Source: an uncultured Bacteroidota bacterium
GTDB taxonomy: Bacteria; Bacteroidota; Bacteroidia; Bacteroidales; UBA12077
Direction of reading: 5' to 3'
Length of the DNA: 64,000 nt
Assembly: GCA_913055635.1 (NCBI GenBank)
Contig: CAJXLK010000008.1
Span: 1-64,000, forward strand
A program made the position numbers and the translations under genes. Each line of letters starts with the position of its first letter. Positions within the stretch are counted from its first letter, which is position 1. The notes beneath the pieces are model-generated. The model was not told the origin of the DNA and did not search any database. It saw nothing but the letters and a program-made list of their open reading frames with translations. Of the stretch, positions 35,263-47,153 are shown piece by piece.

Positions 35263-35640
35263 CTATTCGGTCAATTCTTTGTATTTGGAAGCCTCCAGAA
35301 GATCATCCAATTCTGATTTGTCGGAAATCTTTACCTTGATCAGCCAGCCTTCCCCATAAGGATCCTTGTTGACAATTTCCGGGGTGTCTTCCAATTTGGG
35401 ATTGACTTCTTCTACTTCACCTGAAATAGGCATAAATATGTCGGAAACGGTCTTAACGGCTTCTACCGTTCCAAATACCTCTTCCTTGTCCAGCTTTTCC
35501 CCTTCTGTCTCGATTTCAACAAAGACAACGTCACCCAATTCGTTTTGTGCGTAATCGGTAATGCCTACATAGGCTTCATCACCATCTACTTTTATCCATT
35601 CGTGATCTTTGGTATACTTTAAATTTTCAGGGATGTTCAT
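35263..35640 (-). CDS. gcvH: Glycine cleavage system H protein
   Basis: The lipoyl carrier of the glycine cleavage system: it shuttles the aminomethyl group between the P, T and L proteins. The 125-residue protein has the lipoyl-acceptor Lys63 in [15 protein letters not shown]. The N-terminal KYTKDHEWI and C-terminal [13 protein letters not shown] are characteristic. GcvP, GcvT and GcvL are not in the window. It lies 60 bp downstream of sprA, and a TAATTTTG box between them suggests a separate promoter. The H protein has also been linked to building the hydrogenase H-cluster, relevant because hydF is 10 kb away. Confidence 0.97.
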
Positions 35641-35699: not shown

Positions 35700-38600
35700 T
35701 CATTCGGCCAGTGTAAATCGCAAACTAAAACCGAAGTTGGTGTTGGAGGTGGGATAGGATCGGGATATTTTGGGTTCGTTCACGTTTCGGTCGAAGAAAA
35801 GGCGTACGTTAAAGCGGTTACTCAGGGCATAATCGGCGGAAAAGCCAATGACCACATTGCGTTGCCCGGCTGTAGGCAGATTGTCGACCTCTTCATCCAG
35901 TTTTCGAAGGATGGTCAGGTTGTCGCGGATTTTCACATTGCCTTTTACGTTCAAGTCATTGGGGAGAGACTCCTGGCGATCTCCAAAATCGAGGATCAGG
36001 TGAAAATCCTCAAAACGGTAGCCCACGCTGAAGGAGTATTGTTTGCTGAGGGTTTCGGTAATCTGGTTGTTGGAGAAGCTCAGGGCTACCCGTCGCGAGC
36101 GGGATATCTGGAAGCGGGAGGTGAGGTTGTTTTTCCAGGTGACGTCAAAATTGATCAATGGGTTGAATTGTTCATTAATGGCCACGCTGTTGATTTGATT
36201 GCGAGGCAGGAAGTTGTTTTTCATATCGCGCACCCAACTGAGCTGGTCTTCGAGTTCCTGGTAATCGCGGTTCAGGCGGAATGAACCGATGGTATAGGTA
36301 CTGCGGTAGGCATGGCTGATGTTGACGTTTTTCACCACTTGATCGATGAAACCTATTTTGGTCAAATTGTTCAATGTTACCCGCCAGTTGGGGAAGGGGA
36401 TGGTGGGGAAGTCTTTGAGGGGCACGCTGCCGGTATTGTAGCTTCCATAGGCTGAGAGGAATGCAGGAATAAGCACCTGCTGGCTGGTGGGGCCATACCC
36501 GTCCCAGTATCCGTTGTCATTTGGAGCGGTTGGATTGTAGCCTTGACCGGATTGTTCTATGCGCTTATGGGCCAGCCTCCGGCTTATATCCCGGCGATTG
36601 GCAGTGAAACGGTTGAACGCTTTGGACTGGTAGTTGTTTTCCTGGCTGATCTCATCAAAGGCGGTGTTGACCGAGAGAAAACTCATCGAGAAGTTCCCCT
36701 GCCGCTGTAAGCCATAGCTGTTGATCACCCCGCTGCTGTCAGCAATGTAATATTCCTGGGTGTTACGGGCCATGGTGCGCGACCCGTTCACATCAATGCG
36801 CAGCCAGTTGAACGGCTCAATGGTGGCCCGCAGATTCAGATTTTCATTGTGGGTAAGGGTAAAGGGACTGCTGAGGTTTGGATCTTTGGTGATCCACTGG
36901 TTGTCAACGGCCATTTGGGCAAAATTTTCATTTTGCCAGCCCATGACAAAGGGAATGGTCGGGGCCAGCTCGCCATTTTTGCGGTTTAGCCCCATGACCT
37001 GACTCGATGGGAGAAAACCGGGCAATTCACTTCCTTCGGTCTGAGAAAAGGAGAGGGAAACATTTTTGACCCCCATCAGCACCCTGGCTACATTTTCTGC
37101 GAACAGGGTGAAAAAGCCATCCGTTTGTTCTATTTGGCCTTCGATTTTAATGGTGGCATCAGGATGATCCTCCTGCGCCGTGTAATTAATGGCCTTTTGG
37201 CTGGTAACTTCTGATGACCCCTCTATTTCACGACCTTGCTTGTCGAAAGCTTTAACCTGAACCTTTTTGGTATTTAAATTATGCCAGATTTTTTTGGGCT
37301 CGTTGGCTTGTAGGTTGACATTTTCCCGGTTGTAGCTGACGGTTTTATATTCCTTTTCCTCCTGCCCGATTGATTGTTGATTGATTCTCTTCAAAAAGCC
37401 GACCTTATTATAGAGGTTGTTGAAATTAAACTGGCTGTTGATCTGGACGGTGTTGGAGTTGCGGATGGTATTGCCCAGGTTGATGTTGCTGGTATCGGCC
37501 AGCATGGGACCGGCCTGCCAGTTGTAGGTGCCATTGTAACGGGCCGATACGTTGATCCAGTCCATCAGGGGCAGTTTGTTGATGGGCAGTCGGTAGCTGG
37601 CATCCCATTTATGGTGGTAATTGACGTTGCGCCCGAAATTTCTCAGGTTGGTCATCACCGAATCTTTCCACCTTTGGTAGGTTGCCGGGTCCCTTTTTTT
37701 ATCGACAATGCCGCGGGGTTCGTCGATGCGGGCCTTATTGGTGGCGGTGAAATTGAGCTTCAACGACCGGGTCAGGTCCCATTTAAGACTGTAGTGCCTG
37801 TTCCACAGGAAATTTTTGTCGAAAGTGGGTTCATACCTCAGATTCGGATTGGAAATGTTGCGGTTTTGCATGGCATTGTATGACCTGCGCATTTCGGTGC
37901 GGAAGGTGAAGGAAGAGGGGTAATAATAGAAGTTGAAATCGCGGATGATGCGCAAAAGATCGGAATTGAAGATGCCTCCCAGGCCCCGGAAAGGGGTGAC
38001 GGCTTTGGGTTGGGTGTTGAAGTTGTAGAGCAGGCTTCCCTGGAATTCTTTGGATAGGTTGTATTTGGTGTTGATGTCGCGGGTATAGTATTCATTGTAG
38101 GAATAATTCAGCGAGAAATTGGAGATGTCGTAAAAGTTTCTTTTACCCTGTTTTTGAGGGGTAACCCGCACATTGTTCAGGTTGAAGCTTTTACGCCGCA
38201 CATAATTTTGGGTGATCCGGCGGATTGAGTCGCGGGCCTTTTTGTCTTCAGCGGCGTTCAGGGCATCTTCCAGTTTGATGTCGGGATTCAGCGGGTTGTA
38301 TTCCGGGGTGATGAACCGTTCAGAGTAGCCCAGGTACATGGGGATTTTAACCCCTGCTTTTTCGGGGAAGAATTTGCCCAGGTCCAGGTTGGTCGACACG
38401 TCATACTGGGCTTCCTCCTGTTTGCTGCGCTCATTGACTTTTTTCTCGATGCTGCCGAAACCGGGGGTGGACATGTTTCCGGCAATGTTGATCATGCCCA
38501 GGTCGGCCAGCTGGGTGGAGATGCGCCCGCGGGCTGCCCACCCGCCTTTCTCTTTGAAATCGGTCAGGCGCAGCTCATTCATCCATATTTCACCCGATTT

Positions 38601-41600
38601 GGGCATGCCATCGTCACTGGACATGGCATTGCCCTGCTGGTCGGGATTTCTGATCCCCAGCATAATCGTCCGCAGATCACTCAGGTTGGGATTGCCCCGG
38701 ACACTGATCTTTGCATTGTTCTTCATGACACTGTAAATGGTGTTCATCTGGATGTTGGAGCCTCGGCGCATGGCGGTGTTGCGTCGGAGTTTCACCCGGG
38801 GAAGCTCCTCCAGGTCAATGACCATCTTATTTTTCCAAACCTGTTTGCGGTCATTGCTGCTGTTGTTGTTATAATGGCCCGGCGGGGTCACTTCCAGGGG
38901 GATCTCATACTGGTAATAGTTGTTGCGGTAGTCCGATCCCAGGCGGATGAAAGCCCTCAAATCGCCGTCTTCCAGGCGCTTGTTCTCTAATGCCTCGGTA
39001 TGCAGGAACATCCTTAGTTTCTTGTACTGGCGCACGTCAAGGCTTACGTTCTTGAACGCTGCCCGGGCGTCGCCGTCTTCCAGGCTGTTGACCTTTAAAG
39101 CGATCGCCTGCTCATTGAGCTGTCGCAGCTGGGGATTGGTCGGGTCGATTACCCGGTCAATCCCCGGGGGCAATACATAGTTGACCGGGGTCTTCTTGGC
39201 ATTCTCCTCAATGTTGACCGCCGAGATCCGCATATTGCCCATCGAATATTCCGGGGCTGACAAATTCTCGCTGGTTTCATTCAATGACTTGGTGTAGTTG
39301 CGCCATTCCCCCCTGACCAGGTTCAGCTTGGCAAAACGCAGAATGAGCGAGTCTTCAAATCCCCGCAGGAACATCCGCATGAACCGGATCGAACTGAAAT
39401 CGCGGATGGCCCCTACCCGCTTGTCGGGGTTCTTGATCGGAATCTTGAACTGATACCAGGTGATGTCCGACTTGCGGCCATTGGCCATCTTAATGTCCCT
39501 GCGCACGACCTTGTCGGTGATATAATTCTGGCCTACCTCCATTTGCGTGGGATCCAGTTTTACTTTATACTGGTAATAATTTTCGTTTTCATCCAGGGTG
39601 TTGTCCTGGTTGATGTCTTCTACATCTGGCAGGGTTTTACCGGAGGTAGGGTAAGGTTCGGGCGATTGTTCCGAGGTGGGGGAGTTGCCTTCCATACCGT
39701 TGTATTGCTTGTAGCGCTGTATGATGCCCTTCTTCTGCCGGTCGTAATCGCTGCCCCGGTAGTAATGGTAATTGTCGCCGGAGGGATCCTCCTGAAAGCG
39801 GTTGTAGGCCTGGTCATTGAGATGGCCTTCCAGTTCATCAAGGTATTGTTCAAAGAAACTGCGCTCGTTGTCATCGTCGAGCCCGTCCAGGCCAATGTCC
39901 TGGTATTTTCTGGCGGTGGGGTCGTTGTCAAAGGCGTTGACCAGCGACTGGCTCATGGGGATCCGGCCCCAGGAAGTGGTATCAACCATCTCGACCTGTT
40001 CGGAGGTGGGAAGTCCATTCTCGAAGCTTTTGCGCGAATCTTTGAGGATGTCTTCTGAGATGTTGCCCAGGTTGAAATAGAGTGTGCCGTCGTTGGTCAG
40101 GGTTGAATCATAAACGAAGGGATCCATCAGCCAGAATTCGATATACTCTACATTGGATTCCTCGAAATCGGTGGTGGATATTTCCCGCATGATGCCGGCC
40201 CACCTGGTTTCGGGGTCCTTCAGTGAACCGTCGGAGCTTATTCCGCGTGAGATACCCGGTGCCCCATTGGGCTCGTGTTCATAGTTGTACATGCCCCGTT
40301 CATTGGGGAAATAAGCCAGGTTCAGCACCTGCAGGCTGGCCGGTATTTCACTGGGATTGTCCCGCTTGGGGAAAAGCTCTTTTTCATAGATTTCCCTGAC
40401 GAAATGGCTGGAACGTTGGTCGGGATTGCTTTTTAAATGTTGGGGCATATTGGGGCTGTTTTCCCGCAAAAACAGGGGGTCGATGTGGTACCAGGCCAGC
40501 TCGGCACGGTTGTAGTTATAGGCCAGGGAGTCGATCAGTTCGCCTTCGGGAAACATCTGGGGCTGACCCTGGGGGGTCGATGATAAGACCCATGCCGCGG
40601 GGTTCTTCATATCGATCGACGTCTCACTGCCTTCAAAATCGTCGATGTAAGATACCCCCTTGTCCTTTATGGCCTGGGAGTGGCCGGGGATCAGATGCGC
40701 GAACTCCCCGTCAATCCGTATGCTCGACTCCTCCTTGGTATCGAGCAAGGGGAGGCGGTCAACCAAATCGGTTAAAAAGGGCGATTGGGTGCGATACGAA
40801 CCATTGATGCCCCAAATGGTATTGGAAATGGGTTCATTGCCAATGCTTACCTTCTGGGTGAGTGGTCGCTCGGTCAGATTCATTACCGTGGCCCCCACAT
40901 TGAAGTCTTCCGATACCGTATAGTTGAAATGGGATCCGATCAGGGTCTTCTTTTGCATGCTGTAAGTGGATTGGCTCTCGAGTGAGATTTGGATGGGCGT
41001 GCCCGATTCCAGCAACCCTTCATTGAGTATCTTCACCCGTCCCAGGTTATAGTCGACCGTATAATCTACATTCTCGGTCAGCTTACGCCCCCCGGCCGTG
41101 ACCACTACTGAGCCCTCCGGTATGTTCATGGCGTTCAGGGGAATCTCGGAGCTGGAGGAAGACTGATATTCGCCGCTGAGCTTGAATTTGTTCTTTTCAG
41201 CCGTTTGCCTGGCCACAGTGAGGGTTGAGTCGTAAAGTTCTTCAAAGACATAGTCTTCTGCAATGGAGTTATTGTCGAACTGTTGCTTCAGATAGTCTCC
41301 AAAAGGCTGCACCACCGGGAAGATGATCTTGCCGTTGGAAGGGTCGATGGTGACCCCCGGGATAAAATCGAACCGTCCGTCGGCTCCGGCATCGTTCTGG
41401 GAATTGACATTGTCCAGGTTCAATACCCGCAGCAAACGCTCGTCGCGTATTTTGCCGGCCGGTATGTAGTTCAGCTCATTGCCGGTCTGATCATCCTGAT
41501 AAAGGACGTTGAGTCTGAAACCCTCGCGGTTGACCTGATAGGCATCGATCGAATAGATGTTTTTCATCATCAGTTTCCAGGAGGGGAAACGGGGGGTGAA

Positions 41601-43139
41601 GGCGGTGCCTTTGAGCAGTTTGACCATCAGGGCATTGGGCGAGGTGATGCCCTGGTTGGAAAATTCACCCACCTGGAATTTTTTTCCGCCCCGGGTATAC
41701 TCAAAAGCCACAGCCAGCACCTCGTCGTTGCGCAGGGGCGATTTAAGGGAAATATAACCCAGTTTCTCGTGGACGGTGTATTCGTTGGATTCTAACTTGC
41801 GGGCATTTTCCAGCTTATCATAATCCTGGCCTGATCGAAAGCCATAGGTCTTCCATTGCTGGAGCACATTGTTGGTCTGGCTGATGTCGCGCACACCCTG
41901 CATGGCACCTGAATTGAGCTTCTGGTAAAGGTTGTTGGCGCTGTTGTCCGGCGGCTGGTTCCTGATGCTGGTGATCAGCTGATCCGAGGCCAGGATGTGA
42001 TCGGTTGAACCGTTGATCCGCCCTTCCCCAAGGTCCATGAAAGCAACAATGTTGCGCGAGCTTTCAAAATTGCTGGTTTTATTGGTGATCCAAACTTCCA
42101 CGCGGGTGATGTCGATCTGCGAACTGATGACCGGCAGCCGGCTTAAGGCCTTGTTGTATTTTTCCCTGAAATAATGGGAGAGAAAGAAGTGCCGGTTTTT
42201 GTCATATTCATCGGCTTTGATATCAAAATCCTTGGTCTGGGCTCCTCCTTCTACCTTGATCACCTTACTTTGTCCCTTCTGCTGGGAAAAAACACTGGTT
42301 ACATCCAGGTTGCCAAACCGGAGTTTGGTCTTAACCCCGAAAAGGCTCTGGCTCCCTGTAATAAGGGATCCCGGAAGGGGCAGGTTCACATTGCCGGCCT
42401 CAATATCCTGGATGATCTCATCTTCACCCCCGGAATATTCCAGTTTGGTCTTGTTCTCAAAATCAAAGGTGGCTTCCGTGTCATAGTTGATGCCCAGTTT
42501 GATTTTGTCCCCAATGCTGCCTGTAACATTCATCTGGATTTTTTCCTCAAAATCAAACGTGGTATTGCGCCTGAGTTTTTCGGAAAGTTTGGGATCTTCC
42601 ACCTTGTTGATGTTAACCCCGAAGATCAGCTCGGCCGATCCCTGCGGTACAATATTGATGGTATTGCTCCCGAAGATCCGGTTGAAGGTTTCACCCCCCA
42701 ACTTAAGCTTGGGGATCAAGCCCTGGTCTTCGGTGGCCTCCACACCACTGGCTTTTTGCTGCCAGAAATTGCGCAGCATTTGCTCAAACTGGTAATCCCA
42801 GTACTGTTGCCGGTTCAGGTGGGAGGGCATCCGGTAATCAAAATCCCCGATTTTCTTCTTCAGGATGTATTCATCCCGCTGGGCATCATACTCATAAAAA
42901 GATTTTATGTTTTTGGGATCTTTCAGAAAAAGCGGTGATTCTTGTTTGTCTTTCTGAAAGATGTATTGTGGCTCATCATCAAACTCGTAAGGCAGGTCGG
43001 TGGTGTCGGTGGGGCTGATCGTATCGGGTTGCTGAGGTTGTTGCATTGAAAAATGAATGTGAGCTTCTGCATTTGATGCAAAAGCCCACACTATAAGTAA
43101 AAGCACCAGTTTAACTATTTCTTGACGGTTGAGCTCCAA
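35700..43139 (-). CDS. sprA: T9SS outer-membrane translocon protein SprA (Sov)
   Basis: A giant outer-membrane protein of 2479 residues, the pore of the type IX secretion system. A signal peptide (about 1-26, ending SNAEA) leads to repeated SprA-type segments with many aromatic and Asn residues, such as GSANTINIVPQGS-like IFGSNTINIVPQGSAELIFG and SKVEGGAQTKDFDIKADEYD. YEFDDEPQYIFQKD and INGSYRTQSPFLTDLVDRLP lie in the N-terminal half, and the end is barrel-like (FGFSLRFTLAE, terminal aromatic-rich strand). Length matches SprA of Flavobacterium and Sov of Porphyromonas. It follows ruvA by 17 bp, an arrangement conserved across Bacteroidota. Confidence 0.95.
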   Translation of the reverse strand: MELNRQEIVKLVLLLIVWAFASNAEAHIHFSMQQPQQPDTISPTDTTDLPYEFDDEPQYIFQKDKQESPLFLKDPKNIKSFYEYDAQRDEYILKKKIGDFDYRMPSHLNRQQYWDYQFEQMLRNFWQQKASGVEATEDQGLIPKLKLGGETFNRIFGSNTINIVPQGSAELIFGVNINKVEDPKLSEKLRRNTTFDFEEKIQMNVTGSIGDKIKLGINYDTEATFDFENKTKLEYSGGEDEIIQDIEAGNVNLPLPGSLITGSQSLFGVKTKLRFGNLDVTSVFSQQKGQSKVIKVEGGAQTKDFDIKADEYDKNRHFFLSHYFREKYNKALSRLPVISSQIDITRVEVWITNKTSNFESSRNIVAFMDLGEGRINGSTDHILASDQLITSIRNQPPDNSANNLYQKLNSGAMQGVRDISQTNNVLQQWKTYGFRSGQDYDKLENARKLESNEYTVHEKLGYISLKSPLRNDEVLAVAFEYTRGGKKFQVGEFSNQGITSPNALMVKLLKGTAFTPRFPSWKLMMKNIYSIDAYQVNREGFRLNVLYQDDQTGNELNYIPAGKIRDERLLRVLNLDNVNSQNDAGADGRFDFIPGVTIDPSNGKIIFPVVQPFGDYLKQQFDNNSIAEDYVFEELYDSTLTVARQTAEKNKFKLSGEYQSSSSSEIPLNAMNIPEGSVVVTAGGRKLTENVDYTVDYNLGRVKILNEGLLESGTPIQISLESQSTYSMQKKTLIGSHFNYTVSEDFNVGATVMNLTERPLTQKVSIGNEPISNTIWGINGSYRTQSPFLTDLVDRLPLLDTKEESSIRIDGEFAHLIPGHSQAIKDKGVSYIDDFEGSETSIDMKNPAAWVLSSTPQGQPQMFPEGELIDSLAYNYNRAELAWYHIDPLFLRENSPNMPQHLKSNPDQRSSHFVREIYEKELFPKRDNPSEIPASLQVLNLAYFPNERGMYNYEHEPNGAPGISRGISSDGSLKDPETRWAGIMREISTTDFEESNVEYIEFWLMDPFVYDSTLTNDGTLYFNLGNISEDILKDSRKSFENGLPTSEQVEMVDTTSWGRIPMSQSLVNAFDNDPTARKYQDIGLDGLDDDNERSFFEQYLDELEGHLNDQAYNRFQEDPSGDNYHYYRGSDYDRQKKGIIQRYKQYNGMEGNSPTSEQSPEPYPTSGKTLPDVEDINQDNTLDENENYYQYKVKLDPTQMEVGQNYITDKVVRRDIKMANGRKSDITWYQFKIPIKNPDKRVGAIRDFSSIRFMRMFLRGFEDSLILRFAKLNLVRGEWRNYTKSLNETSENLSAPEYSMGNMRISAVNIEENAKKTPVNYVLPPGIDRVIDPTNPQLRQLNEQAIALKVNSLEDGDARAAFKNVSLDVRQYKKLRMFLHTEALENKRLEDGDLRAFIRLGSDYRNNYYQYEIPLEVTPPGHYNNNSSNDRKQVWKNKMVIDLEELPRVKLRRNTAMRRGSNIQMNTIYSVMKNNAKISVRGNPNLSDLRTIMLGIRNPDQQGNAMSSDDGMPKSGEIWMNELRLTDFKEKGGWAARGRISTQLADLGMINIAGNMSTPGFGSIEKKVNERSKQEEAQYDVSTNLDLGKFFPEKAGVKIPMYLGYSERFITPEYNPLNPDIKLEDALNAAEDKKARDSIRRITQNYVRRKSFNLNNVRVTPQKQGKRNFYDISNFSLNYSYNEYYTRDINTKYNLSKEFQGSLLYNFNTQPKAVTPFRGLGGIFNSDLLRIIRDFNFYYYPSSFTFRTEMRRSYNAMQNRNISNPNLRYEPTFDKNFLWNRHYSLKWDLTRSLKLNFTATNKARIDEPRGIVDKKRDPATYQRWKDSVMTNLRNFGRNVNYHHKWDASYRLPINKLPLMDWINVSARYNGTYNWQAGPMLADTSNINLGNTIRNSNTVQINSQFNFNNLYNKVGFLKRINQQSIGQEEKEYKTVSYNRENVNLQANEPKKIWHNLNTKKVQVKAFDKQGREIEGSSEVTSQKAINYTAQEDHPDATIKIEGQIEQTDGFFTLFAENVARVLMGVKNVSLSFSQTEGSELPGFLPSSQVMGLNRKNGELAPTIPFVMGWQNENFAQMAVDNQWITKDPNLSSPFTLTHNENLNLRATIEPFNWLRIDVNGSRTMARNTQEYYIADSSGVINSYGLQRQGNFSMSFLSVNTAFDEISQENNYQSKAFNRFTANRRDISRRLAHKRIEQSGQGYNPTAPNDNGYWDGYGPTSQQVLIPAFLSAYGSYNTGSVPLKDFPTIPFPNWRVTLNNLTKIGFIDQVVKNVNISHAYRSTYTIGSFRLNRDYQELEDQLSWVRDMKNNFLPRNQINSVAINEQFNPLINFDVTWKNNLTSRFQISRSRRVALSFSNNQITETLSKQYSFSVGYRFEDFHLILDFGDRQESLPNDLNVKGNVKIRDNLTILRKLDEEVDNLPTAGQRNVVIGFSADYALSNRFNVRLFFDRNVNEPKISRSYPTSNTNFGFSLRFTLAE

Positions 43140-43878: not shown

Positions 43879-43913
43879 TTTTGCCCGATTTGTTATATTA
43901 AATGTTATTTTTG
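43879..43913 (+). promoter_or_regulatory. Candidate promoter of aspA
   Basis: TTTG (43880-43883), 22-bp spacer, TATTTTTG (43906-43913), then 27 bp to the aspA ATG. The spacer is slightly longer than the usual 19-21 bp. Confidence 0.55.
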
Positions 43914-43940: not shown

Positions 43941-45395
43941 ATGAGAGAGGAAGAAGATGCTTTAGGCAAGAGAAATATTGCCGATGATGCTCTATATGGC
44001 ATCCATGCGGTTCGGGCAAAGGAGAACTTTCCTGATGGCAATCCTTTCCACCCCGAGTGGTATAAGGGGCTGGCCACGGTGAAGCTTGCCTGTTATCAGA
44101 CCTATCGGCGTTTTAAAGATGCGGTAGGCAGGAAGTATGGACATTTGGAGGTTCCCCTGAGGATGATGGATGATCGGGTTTTGGAGGCCCTTATCCGGAG
44201 TGCCGAGGAGCTGACCACCGGAGATTATGCCGGCCATTTCATTGTGCCGGCGGTTCAGGGAGGTGCCGGCACGAGCATCAACATGAACATCAATGAGATC
44301 ATCACCAATGTGGCCCTCAAGCGCATGGGGCGGTCTGCTGGCGATTACCGTATGATTGATCCCATTGAGCACGCCAATATCTATCAATCGACCAACGATG
44401 TGGTCCCGACCGCCTTAAAGGTGACAGCTATGAGGCTGCTTGAGCAGCTGGAAGAAGGGATCAACAAAACCCGCGGGCAGTTGGAGGCACTCGAGCAAAA
44501 ACACCGGGATGATTTGCGCATTGGTTATACTCAGATGCAGGAAGCCGTCCCCTCTTCCTTTGGCAAACTTTTCAGTTCTTACAATGAAGCCTTTTCTCGC
44601 GATTGGTGGCGTGTGTCCAAGTGCATGGAGCGCCTAAAGGTGGTAAATCTGGGTGGCAGTGCCATCGGGACAGGCCTTACCGTTCCTACCTATTTTATCA
44701 TGGAAGTGGTGCCCGTCTTGCGCCGTTTAACCGATCTGCCCCTGGCCCGGGCCGAAAATATGCCCGATGCCACCAGCAACCTCGACCCCTTTGTTGAGGT
44801 CCACGCTACCCTCAAGGCTCATGCGGTGAACCTGGAGAAGATGGCCGATGACCTGCGCCTGCTCTCCTCGGACCGCACCGGTCAAAATGAATTGAGCCTG
44901 CCCGAACGCCAGGTGGGCAGTTCGATTATGCCCGGTAAAGTCAATCCCGTTATCCCCGAATTCGTGATCGGGGCCGTTCATCGTATCTATTCCAACGATG
45001 CGATGATTGGCAACCTGGCCGGACAGGGCTCCCTTGAACTTAATCCTTACCTGCCCATGGTGGGCCATGCCCTGATCGACAGCCTTAAATTGCTGATCGG
45101 CATTAACCAAACCCTCCATGATAATATGATACAGGATATGCGCGTGCATACCGGAGTGGCCCTTGAACGCCTCCACTACAGCCCCGCCATTACCACCGCC
45201 CTGAGCCCTTATATCGGCTACCATAAGGCCAGCCACCTGGCCCATGCCATGAAGGAAAAACACATCGACATCTTTGAAGCCAACCATCAATTGGGCTACC
45301 TCAGCCAAAACAGACTGAACGAACTGCTGAAACCAGCAAACCTCCTGAAAATGGGGTTTCGAATCGATGAACTCCCGAAAGACCAAAATCAATGA
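43941..45395 (+). CDS. aspA: Aspartate ammonia-lyase
   Basis: A fumarase/aspartase-superfamily lyase of 484 residues that should convert aspartate to fumarate and ammonia. The superfamily signature GSSIMPGKVNP is at about 325-335. Aspartase rather than fumarase is suggested by GAGTSINMNINE (fumarases usually have GTQ) and by STNDVVPTALK. Other marks are GRSAGDYRMIDP-like helices and QGSLELNPYLPMVG. hydF starts 236 bp downstream on the same strand. An aspartase-like gene near hydrogenase maturases is a recurring arrangement as I remember it, so a supply role in H-cluster assembly is possible. Confidence 0.9.
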   Translation: MREEEDALGKRNIADDALYGIHAVRAKENFPDGNPFHPEWYKGLATVKLACYQTYRRFKDAVGRKYGHLEVPLRMMDDRVLEALIRSAEELTTGDYAGHFIVPAVQGGAGTSINMNINEIITNVALKRMGRSAGDYRMIDPIEHANIYQSTNDVVPTALKVTAMRLLEQLEEGINKTRGQLEALEQKHRDDLRIGYTQMQEAVPSSFGKLFSSYNEAFSRDWWRVSKCMERLKVVNLGGSAIGTGLTVPTYFIMEVVPVLRRLTDLPLARAENMPDATSNLDPFVEVHATLKAHAVNLEKMADDLRLLSSDRTGQNELSLPERQVGSSIMPGKVNPVIPEFVIGAVHRIYSNDAMIGNLAGQGSLELNPYLPMVGHALIDSLKLLIGINQTLHDNMIQDMRVHTGVALERLHYSPAITTALSPYIGYHKASHLAHAMKEKHIDIFEANHQLGYLSQNRLNELLKPANLLKMGFRIDELPKDQNQ

Positions 45396-45631
45396 GGCCA
45401 CTAACGGGGGTAAAATTTTTTGTGGGTCAATGGATTAAAAGGACATCAGGCCACTATCCTGCCCGAAAAACCATTTCCTTTATGGCGAAACGCTTAAACA
45501 AGACATATAGAGAAAGCGGGCCATGACCTGAAGTGGGGCTATTTAACCCGCCTGCTTCAAAACAGCTAAATAAATCCCCGGGCAGCACGTTATCACATAT
45601 AAATTGCAAAACATTAAAGATCAAAACATCT

Positions 45632-46861
45632 ATGGCCAAAGGCAAAGAGTCAAAACCGCACATTGGAATATATGGCCGGAGGAACTATGGGAAAAGTTCG
45701 CTGATCAATCAGCTGGCCGGTCAGGAAATAGCCATTGTTTCAGAGCATGCAGGGACAACCACCGATCCGGTAAAAAAATCGTTTGAGATTACTGGTTTTG
45801 GGCCGGTGATATTGGTTGATACGGCTGGAATAGATGACGAGGGTGAGCTGGGTGAGAAACGCATACGCAAAACCCGCTCTTCCATTAAGACGATCGATCT
45901 GGGTATTCTGGTGATTTCCGGTAACCTTTTTGGAGCATTTGAACAGGAAGTGATCCGGGAGTTTGAAAAAACGGCCACCCCTTTTATCATTGTTCACAAT
46001 AAATCGGATGAGCAGGCCATGAGTGCGAAATTGCGCCATCGCCTTGAATCGGACTACGAGAGCAAGATTCTGGATTATAACACTTTTTCCGCGCGCGATA
46101 AGAGGGCTTTGATTGATGCGATTAAACAATCCATTCCGGAGTCGGCTTATAAGGCACCCTCACTGGTGGGTGATCTGATTCAGTATGGAGATGTCGTGCT
46201 CCTGATCACTCCGATTGATATTGAAGCCCCTACGGGAAGGCTTATATTGCCTCAGGTTCAGGCTATAAGGGATGTGCTCGACAATGATGCCGTCAGCGTG
46301 GTCCTTAAAGAACGGGAAGTGGATGCCTTCCTTCGCAAGACAGGCATCCAGCCAAGCCTGGCCATCACCGACAGCCAGGTCTTTACCAAGGCCGATTCTT
46401 CGGTACCCGACCATATACCCCTTACCAGCTTCAGCATCATGCTGGCCCGTTTTAAGGGCGATTTTGATAACTACCTGAAGGGTACTCCCGCCATCTCCGA
46501 GTTGAACGATGGCGATCGGGTGCTGCTGCTGGAATCATGTACCCACCACGTATCCTGTGATGACATCGGCCGGGTTAAAATACCCCGCTGGATTTCCAAT
46601 TTTACCGGAAAGCATCTGGAATATGAAGTGGTTGCCGGCCTGAACGATTTGCCATGCGATATTCATGAGTATTCACTGGTTATCCAGTGCGGAGGGTGTA
46701 TGATCACCCGCAAACAGCTGATCAATCGCATTAAGCCTGCCGTGGATGCAGGAATTCCAGTGACCAATTATGGCATGGCCATTGCCTACGTCCAGGGAAT
46801 TTATCACAGGGCCATCTCCCCCTTTGTACACCAGCAATCAGATGCCCTCGATTATTTATGA
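45632..46861 (+). CDS. hydF: [FeFe]-hydrogenase H-cluster maturation GTPase HydF
   Basis: HydF is the scaffold on which the two-iron subcluster of [FeFe]-hydrogenase is completed. I choose the ATG at 45632 (MAKGKESKPHIGIYGRRNYG); an earlier in-frame ATG at 45533 adds an unlikely 33 residues. The 409-residue protein has the GTPase P-loop GRRNYGKSS (15-23), the DTAGIDDEGE switch and NKSD. The C-terminal [4Fe-4S] motif is Cys303-x-His305 and Cys353-GG-Cys356. The usual His before the CxxC is Gln352 here. No hydE, hydG or hydrogenase gene is in the window. Confidence 0.95.
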   Translation: MAKGKESKPHIGIYGRRNYGKSSLINQLAGQEIAIVSEHAGTTTDPVKKSFEITGFGPVILVDTAGIDDEGELGEKRIRKTRSSIKTIDLGILVISGNLFGAFEQEVIREFEKTATPFIIVHNKSDEQAMSAKLRHRLESDYESKILDYNTFSARDKRALIDAIKQSIPESAYKAPSLVGDLIQYGDVVLLITPIDIEAPTGRLILPQVQAIRDVLDNDAVSVVLKEREVDAFLRKTGIQPSLAITDSQVFTKADSSVPDHIPLTSFSIMLARFKGDFDNYLKGTPAISELNDGDRVLLLESCTHHVSCDDIGRVKIPRWISNFTGKHLEYEVVAGLNDLPCDIHEYSLVIQCGGCMITRKQLINRIKPAVDAGIPVTNYGMAIAYVQGIYHRAISPFVHQQSDALDYL

Positions 46862-47153
46862 CAGGCCCCTGCCAAACAACTTGGTTTAAACCCCATTCAG
46901 GGTTTCTCTTATATCAGCCAAAAGATTTTATACCAAAGGGTTGCTTAACCCGGAATTTTGATCAGGGAATCAAATAACCTTCTCTGAAACCCTGGCCGAC
47001 CAGACTGGTTTGACGGCCCCCTGGCACTGTTAAATTTTTTTAGGCGGGAAAAGTAAATTTAAGGGTCAATTTTTTTGATTTTATTCAAAAAAATTATAAT
47101 ATAAACCCTGATCCGAATGGTGAAAAGTTTGGGCCACTTTCGCGACAAACCCT

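Follow-up and report, generated by a model that had tools for sequence, protein, structure and literature searches.

A hydF-linked clade of aspartase-type lyases and its possible part in H-cluster maturation

Published evidence on aspA and hydF

The system closest to the locus analysed here is that of Pagnier et al. (2024), whose main text describes the same gene pair with the same proposed role (PMC11736057). According to that text, 15N of aspartate enters the bridge of the H-cluster in vitro with E. coli AspA, as observed by ENDOR, and the GTPase of HydF is stimulated by ammonia; in the accompanying survey, 701 hydF nodes (79% of 887) had a Pfam domain of aspA, ilvA or sdaA in their vicinity, with aspA usually adjoining hydF (PMC11736057). 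The supply of ammonia for the bridging ligand from a hydF-linked aspA, which the sequence-only reading of our locus had put forward as a hypothesis, was therefore already proposed in 2024; the idea has published in vitro support, obtained with the E. coli enzyme, yet it is not new, and the lyase is missing in many HydF genomes.

Pagnier et al. relied on neighbourhood Pfam domains and E. coli AspA, whereas the clade, the non-adjacent co-occurrence and the sub-lineage described below come from the present analysis. The main text of PMC11736057 holds no mention of phylogeny, clades, monophyly, paralogs or Bacteroid- names, and a search of titles and abstracts, with subscription papers and preprints outside its scope, found no statement of a separate clade of linked lyases. 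What is added here, by sequence comparison, is an apparently dedicated clade, co-occurrence beyond adjacency, and a diverged variant of the lyase in the window. The matter bears on the nitrogen source of the H-cluster bridge in living cells.

The lyase, hydF and the host genome

The window, that is, the whole stretch of 64,000 nucleotides that was analysed, corresponds to positions 1 to 64000 of contig C8 in a host genome of 4.08 Mb (77 contigs, 99.31% complete). Domain matches and TIGR03918 confirmed that an aspartase-type lyase and hydF lie on one strand (Table 1), and hydE and hydG were found elsewhere, on contig C32 (355 bits, cut-off 254.6) and contig C19 (498.6 bits, cut-off 312.15), respectively, as had been read from the sequence. 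In addition to its TIGR03918 score, the HydF protein carries the dimerisation and tetramerisation domains (PF18128 HydF_dimer, PF18133 HydF_tetramer) and the cluster cysteines C303, C353 and C356, which are invariant in a 14-row alignment.

Table 1. Features of the lyase-hydF locus and its context in the window
Feature	Position	Strand	Evidence and remarks
Promoter-like site TTTG-n22-TATTTTTG	43880..43913	+	27 bp 5' of the aspA start; consensus match only
Aspartase-type lyase, hydF-associated clade (hydF-type AspA)	43941..45395	+	484 aa; PF00206 201.1 bits, PF10415 48.3 bits
Gap from aspA to the proposed ATG of hydF	45396..45631	+	236 bp, without a promoter-pattern match
hydF, [FeFe]-hydrogenase H-cluster maturation GTPase	45632..46861	+	TIGR03918 492.7 bits, cut-off 325.55
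gcvH, glycine cleavage H-protein	35263..35640	-	TIGR00527 163.8 bits, cut-off 115.85; context only

The open reading frame of hydF was listed with a GTG start at 45533, and TIGR03918 matches this longer frame from residue 39 onwards, so that the ATG at 45632 is most likely the true start, which sets the length of the gap given in Table 1. The motif upstream of aspA is of a kind that we take to be the Bacteroidota-type promoter pattern; the window has three matches to it in all on its + strand. With one of these 5' of aspA and none in the gap, a two-gene operon fits, although the site is a consensus match only. Terminator-like sites, including those at 46888-46905 and 46951-46938 downstream of hydF, were not relied on, because their number equals the shuffle level (4 found, 4.0 expected); sigma-70 sites numbered 11 against 4.4 expected from shuffles and are of doubtful meaning in Bacteroidota. 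The 2479-aa frame between gcvH and ruvA (35700-43139, - strand) presumably encodes the gliding-motility/type 9 secretion protein SprA.

The [FeFe]-hydrogenase maturation system is complete in the host genome, with HydA, HydE, HydG and HydF all found and the HydA genes on contigs C54, C2 and C43, away from hydF. Six proteins match PF02906. Two of them (L001, 891.1 bits; L002, 879.5 bits) exceed the cut-off of 765 of the A6 hydrogenase NCBIfam model and are group-A HydA; a third (L003) falls below the A6 model (663.7) and below the group A model (391.0 of 405.95), and the others (L004 to L006) are HydA-like proteins of other kinds by NCBIfam. Among the latter, L004 (positions 409-2409, - strand, on C43) is a putative hydrogen- or redox-sensing kinase, in which histidine kinase domains (HisKA, HATPase_c) are fused to ferredoxin-like and [FeFe]-hydrogenase C-terminal ones. 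Both glycine cleavage proteins of the supply route of PMC11736057 are encoded, GcvH in the window and GcvT on contig C36. For organisms with aspA, the main text of the same paper also brings in a further ammonia-lyase, SdaA or IlvA (PMC11736057); the SdaA family PF03313 had no match in the host genome, and SdaA was dropped as a second ammonia source.

The window lyase contains the Lyase_1 and FumaraseC_C domains together with an SS loop of the aspartase form GSSxMPxKxNP (here SSIMPGKVNP), QSTND and TQ. It scores below all three NCBIfam aspartase cut-offs (NF008909, 447.5 of 510; TIGR00839, 361.6 of 681.2; NF011092, 305.7 of 876) and was therefore filed as aspartase-type rather than as an AspA equivalog. 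In its AlphaFold model (pLDDT 91.6, pTM 0.90), confidence is lowest, with blocks at 66-71, over residues 311-340, which comprise the diverged region and the catalytic loop; the model is closest in fold to aspartases (Z 51.6, rmsd 1.7, 458 residues) and then to fumarases (49.3). AspB of Bacillus sp. YM55-1 (PDB 1j3u, 3r6v) superposes on the model with Z 51.2-51.5 and rmsd 1.7-1.8 over 457-459 residues at 35-36% identity, and the catalytic residues named for it in the source (PMC11744663) are common to both proteins. Two differences from AspB were seen: the window lyase has other residues, with a one-residue deletion, in place of the SGPxxGxxE stretch ahead of the catalytic loop, and Gln in place of His188. 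An altered catalytic site by way of the latter was rejected, since Gln is ordinary at this position, being found in E. coli AspA and in all 19 unlinked rows of the tree described below.

A search with the lyase sequence, independent of any profile, found two paralogues in the host genome, a 625-aa aspartase on contig C29 and a fumarase-like protein on contig C7. The C29 aspartase (L009:1489-3363, - strand) shares the superfamily with the window lyase at 37-39% identity. Unlike the latter, it passes TIGR00839 (705, cut-off 681.2) and NF008909 (748.6, cut-off 510), although it misses NF011092 (600.6 of 876), it has a cyclic-nucleotide-binding domain (PF00027, 65 bits) at its N-terminus, and it is placed among the unlinked rather than the linked aspartases. 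Open frames of the same length, about 615-655 aa, occur in several relatives within the phylum.

Neighbourhood, co-occurrence and phylogeny of the linked lyases

In a phylum sample of 296 genomes, HydF scored above its cut-off in 19, and 13 of these, the window counted, have an aspartase-type gene directly upstream of hydF; the other six HydF genomes (G230, G287, G196, G132, G294, G160) have no linked lyase. In genomes of family f17 the two genes overlap by a few bases (8 bp in L042, for example). A single-sequence search with the window lyase at 1e-100 matched 2 of the 296 genomes and was too strict, so a profile search was used instead. With profile A1, built from the 13 hydF-adjacent lyases, these scored 693-920 bits, against 466 for the best of all further matches in the 296 genomes; the scores of the 13 builders are circular, unlike the absence of a similar lyase away from hydF.

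Named loci were taken as the best 80 of 583 HydF relatives, a sample that leans towards the kin of the window. A linked lyase was found within the flank in 22 of these 80, lying at most 0.5 kb upstream on the same strand in 17, at 1.3-1.6 kb in L116 and L167, at 6.3 kb in L096, and about 5 kb downstream on the opposite strand in L115 and L149; the remaining 58 showed no lyase in the flank, 8 of them having less than 1 kb of upstream sequence. When 18 other loci were added, a gene of the AspA family was the commonest neighbour of hydF, within five ORFs in 33 of 98 loci and directly upstream on the same strand in 28. The other neighbours in the window, RuvA, SprA, a methyltransferase and GcvH, recur in none of 99 hydF loci within a reach of about 8-10 kb from hydF. 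The adjacency of aspA and hydF is thus more than chance, whereas the nearness of GcvH, about 8 kb away and flagged beforehand as perhaps fortuitous, is probably chance, and GcvH was rejected as a part of the locus. With HydE and HydG of the host as queries, the gene orders aspA-hydF-hydE (L104, L114, L164) and hydE-hydG-aspA-hydF (L162, L169) were seen, as well as hydG-hydF-hydE without aspA (L125, L126, L128, L133, L135 and L146, for example).

Co-occurrence was analysed in 149 genomes of the order of the host, where a linked lyase was defined by a score of at least 673 bits with profile A3 (next match 499.5). It was present in 41 genomes, HydF above cut-off in 84, and group-A HydA at 1e-60 in 95. 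By Fisher tests that treat related genomes as independent, HydF accompanies the lyase in 38 of 41 carriers against 46 of 108 non-carriers (OR 17, p ~8e-9) and HydA in 40 of 41 against 55 of 108 (OR 39, p ~8e-9). No carrier among the 41 has neither HydF nor HydA, and the three without HydF are genomes 70, 79 and 88% complete. For other aspartases (≤1e-120, 45 genomes), the same tests gave 33 of 45 against 51 of 104 for HydF (OR 2.9, p 0.007) and 32 of 45 against 63 of 104 for HydA (OR 1.6, p 0.27). Where lyase and HydF occur together, the pairs are adjacent in 22 genomes, apart on one contig in 2 and on different contigs in 14, some of the last being possibly contig breaks. The linked lyase therefore follows HydF and HydA beyond mere adjacency.

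Two results named beforehand as contrary to a hydrogenase connection, the lack of HydA, HydE or HydG in the organism and the lack of lyase enrichment in hydrogenase-bearing genomes, did not appear, since HydA, HydE, HydG and HydF are all present and the enrichment is found for both HydA and HydF. The linked lyase is nevertheless not essential, because it is missing in 46 of the 84 HydF genomes of the order, including the only genome of the same family (G391), which has HydF and HydA. Among the 79 genomes with both HydF and HydA, 37 have the linked lyase, 30 another aspartase, and 29 neither at the 1e-120 limit.

For the phylogeny, 33 of the 35 linked lyases were used (G082 and G047 were left out) with 19 unlinked aspartases, among them E. 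coli AspA and the C29 paralogue, and with fumarases as outgroup; the 17 unlinked Bacteroidota rows had ranked next below the linked lyases in the phylum profile search. G148, whose HydF-like match is partial (134 bits), does not count among the HydF genomes of the surveys. In the resulting 54-row tree, the 33 linked lyases form one side of a branch with support 100/99. This clade stayed intact when nine more aspartases from Pseudomonadota, Actinomycetota, Bacillota and Bacteroidota plasmids were added (28 unlinked rows; SH-aLRT 99 by a quick method without bootstrap). By record names, most of them metagenome bins, its members come from five phyla: Bacteroidota, Planctomycetota, Sumerlaeota, Hydrogenedentota and Bacillota. 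Profile A3 separates linked rows, at 654.5 bits or more, from the 28 unlinked rows at 430.9-521.8, and the best solved PDB chain reaches 519.3 bits, below the linked range; the window lyase belongs to the linked clade as defined in this analysis. E. coli AspA, the enzyme used in vitro, was placed outside it, so that aspartase activity of the linked clade itself is something we infer.

Within the clade, a stem of 1.16 changes per site leads to a subclade made up of the window lyase and 16 named rows (Labilibaculum, Carboxylicivirga, Anaerophaga and others). All 17 rows keep the SS-loop serines (the second Ser being rarely Thr), the substrate-pocket Lys and Asn, QSTND and the Thr of TQ. In E. 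coli numbering, D96 is replaced by P (17/17), R189 by Y or F (16/17) and T233 by S or G (17/17), and P305 (17/17), G304 (14/17) and G308 are also replaced; the 16 other linked and the 19 unlinked aspartases show no variation at these six positions. The same substitution pattern was found in 29 further sequences of the order, with the catalytic residues kept in 29 of 29. The five subclade members tested all fall below NF008909 (412-445 bits) and TIGR00839, whereas the five other linked lyases tested all pass NF008909 (572-664) and none passes TIGR00839 (456-550); 0 of the 11 linked proteins tested reach the aspA equivalog cut-off. The sub-lineage of the window is thus a diverged variant with its catalytic residues kept. 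HydF of the same subclade has a similarly long stem of 1.25, so the divergence is not peculiar to the lyase, and fast evolution specific to AspA is not claimed. Pairwise distances of lyase and HydF, uncorrected for the species tree, correlate: r is 0.957 for all 33 pairs, 0.712 inside the subclade and 0.969 for the remaining ones.

Proposed role, alternatives and other genes around hydF

Taken together, we consider it reasonably probable that the window carries a small operon in which HydF is combined with its own aspartase-type lyase, giving aspartate ammonia for the H-cluster bridge via the T-protein and H-protein. The lyase would cleave L-aspartate to fumarate and ammonia, and the latter, passing through the T-protein and the H-protein (aminomethyl-lipoyl GcvH), would provide the nitrogen atom in the dithiomethylamine bridge that is installed on HydF. 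This proposal builds on the full hydrogenase and GcvH/GcvT gene set of the host, the linked clade and its co-occurrence with HydF and HydA; aspartase activity of the clade, ammonia as the useful product, and action near HydF are presumed. It counts against the proposal that the host has a second, more standard aspartase on C29, from which the ammonia for the bridge could come, and so does the absence of the linked lyase from 46 of 84 HydF genomes in the order, from 6 of 19 in the phylum sample, from 58 of 80 named flanks and from the four plasmid-collection loci. A bolder version, tentative and on present evidence unlikely, sees in the linked lyases not a borrowed metabolic aspartase but a factor dedicated to H-cluster maturation, which would hand over ammonia from aspartate, or act on a related substrate, directly at HydF and the H-protein; the enzyme of the window lineage would have been retuned along with its diverged HydF. 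If the clade is indeed dedicated, the enzyme to test is the linked one and not E. coli AspA, and the clade would give a sequence marker for automated annotation, in which the window protein drops below the aspA cut-offs. In genomes that, like that of the host, encode an ordinary aspartase as well as a linked one, the two roles would then be separated by nature.

The lyase might instead be an ordinary aspartase whose fumarate serves as an electron sink in hydrogen-making anaerobes, with co-location reflecting shared regulation under anoxia and not ligand synthesis. The main text of Pagnier et al. mentions fumarate as an electron acceptor (PMC11736057), and other aspartases also lean towards HydF genomes; the bias is, however, far stronger for the linked clade, and in the compared loci the lyase adjoins hydF, most commonly directly upstream, and not fumarate reductase, which makes this metabolic explanation unlikely. 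A changed substrate, or a non-catalytic partnership with HydF, of the linked clade or at least of the sub-lineage of the window would agree with the failure of the window lyase against three aspartase models, with the low equivalog scores of all linked proteins tested, and with the loss of the otherwise invariant D96, R189, T233 and P305 in the subclade and the 29 further sequences. The catalytic and pocket residues are kept throughout these same sequences, however, and the HydF stem is equally long, so that we regard such a change as quite improbable. Chance or hitch-hiking adjacency without functional meaning, which the many hydF genomes without the lyase might suggest, is disfavoured and seems very improbable indeed: one clade recurs in five phyla, 16 of the 38 lyase-HydF pairs are not adjacent and yet co-occur (14 on different contigs, some possibly by contig breaks), and the other neighbours in the window are not conserved in the compared loci.

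Other genes were also observed around hydF. In L105, L107, L113, L118, L119, L120 and L121, a short-chain-dehydrogenase-like gene and then Rnf-like genes, named by eye, follow hydF, and these recur 3' of hydF whether aspA is present or absent. Among HydF loci from a plasmid collection, 4 of 4 (from six hits, H42 and H43 being left out) have no such lyase within 7 kb. In one plasmid locus, L234 on the Cetobacterium somerae plasmid NZ_CP092520.1, asnA (aspartate-ammonia ligase) precedes hydE-hydG-hydF and hutH (histidine ammonia-lyase) follows, with a Na+/H+ antiporter gene between, so that other ammonia-handling genes adjoin the hyd genes there.
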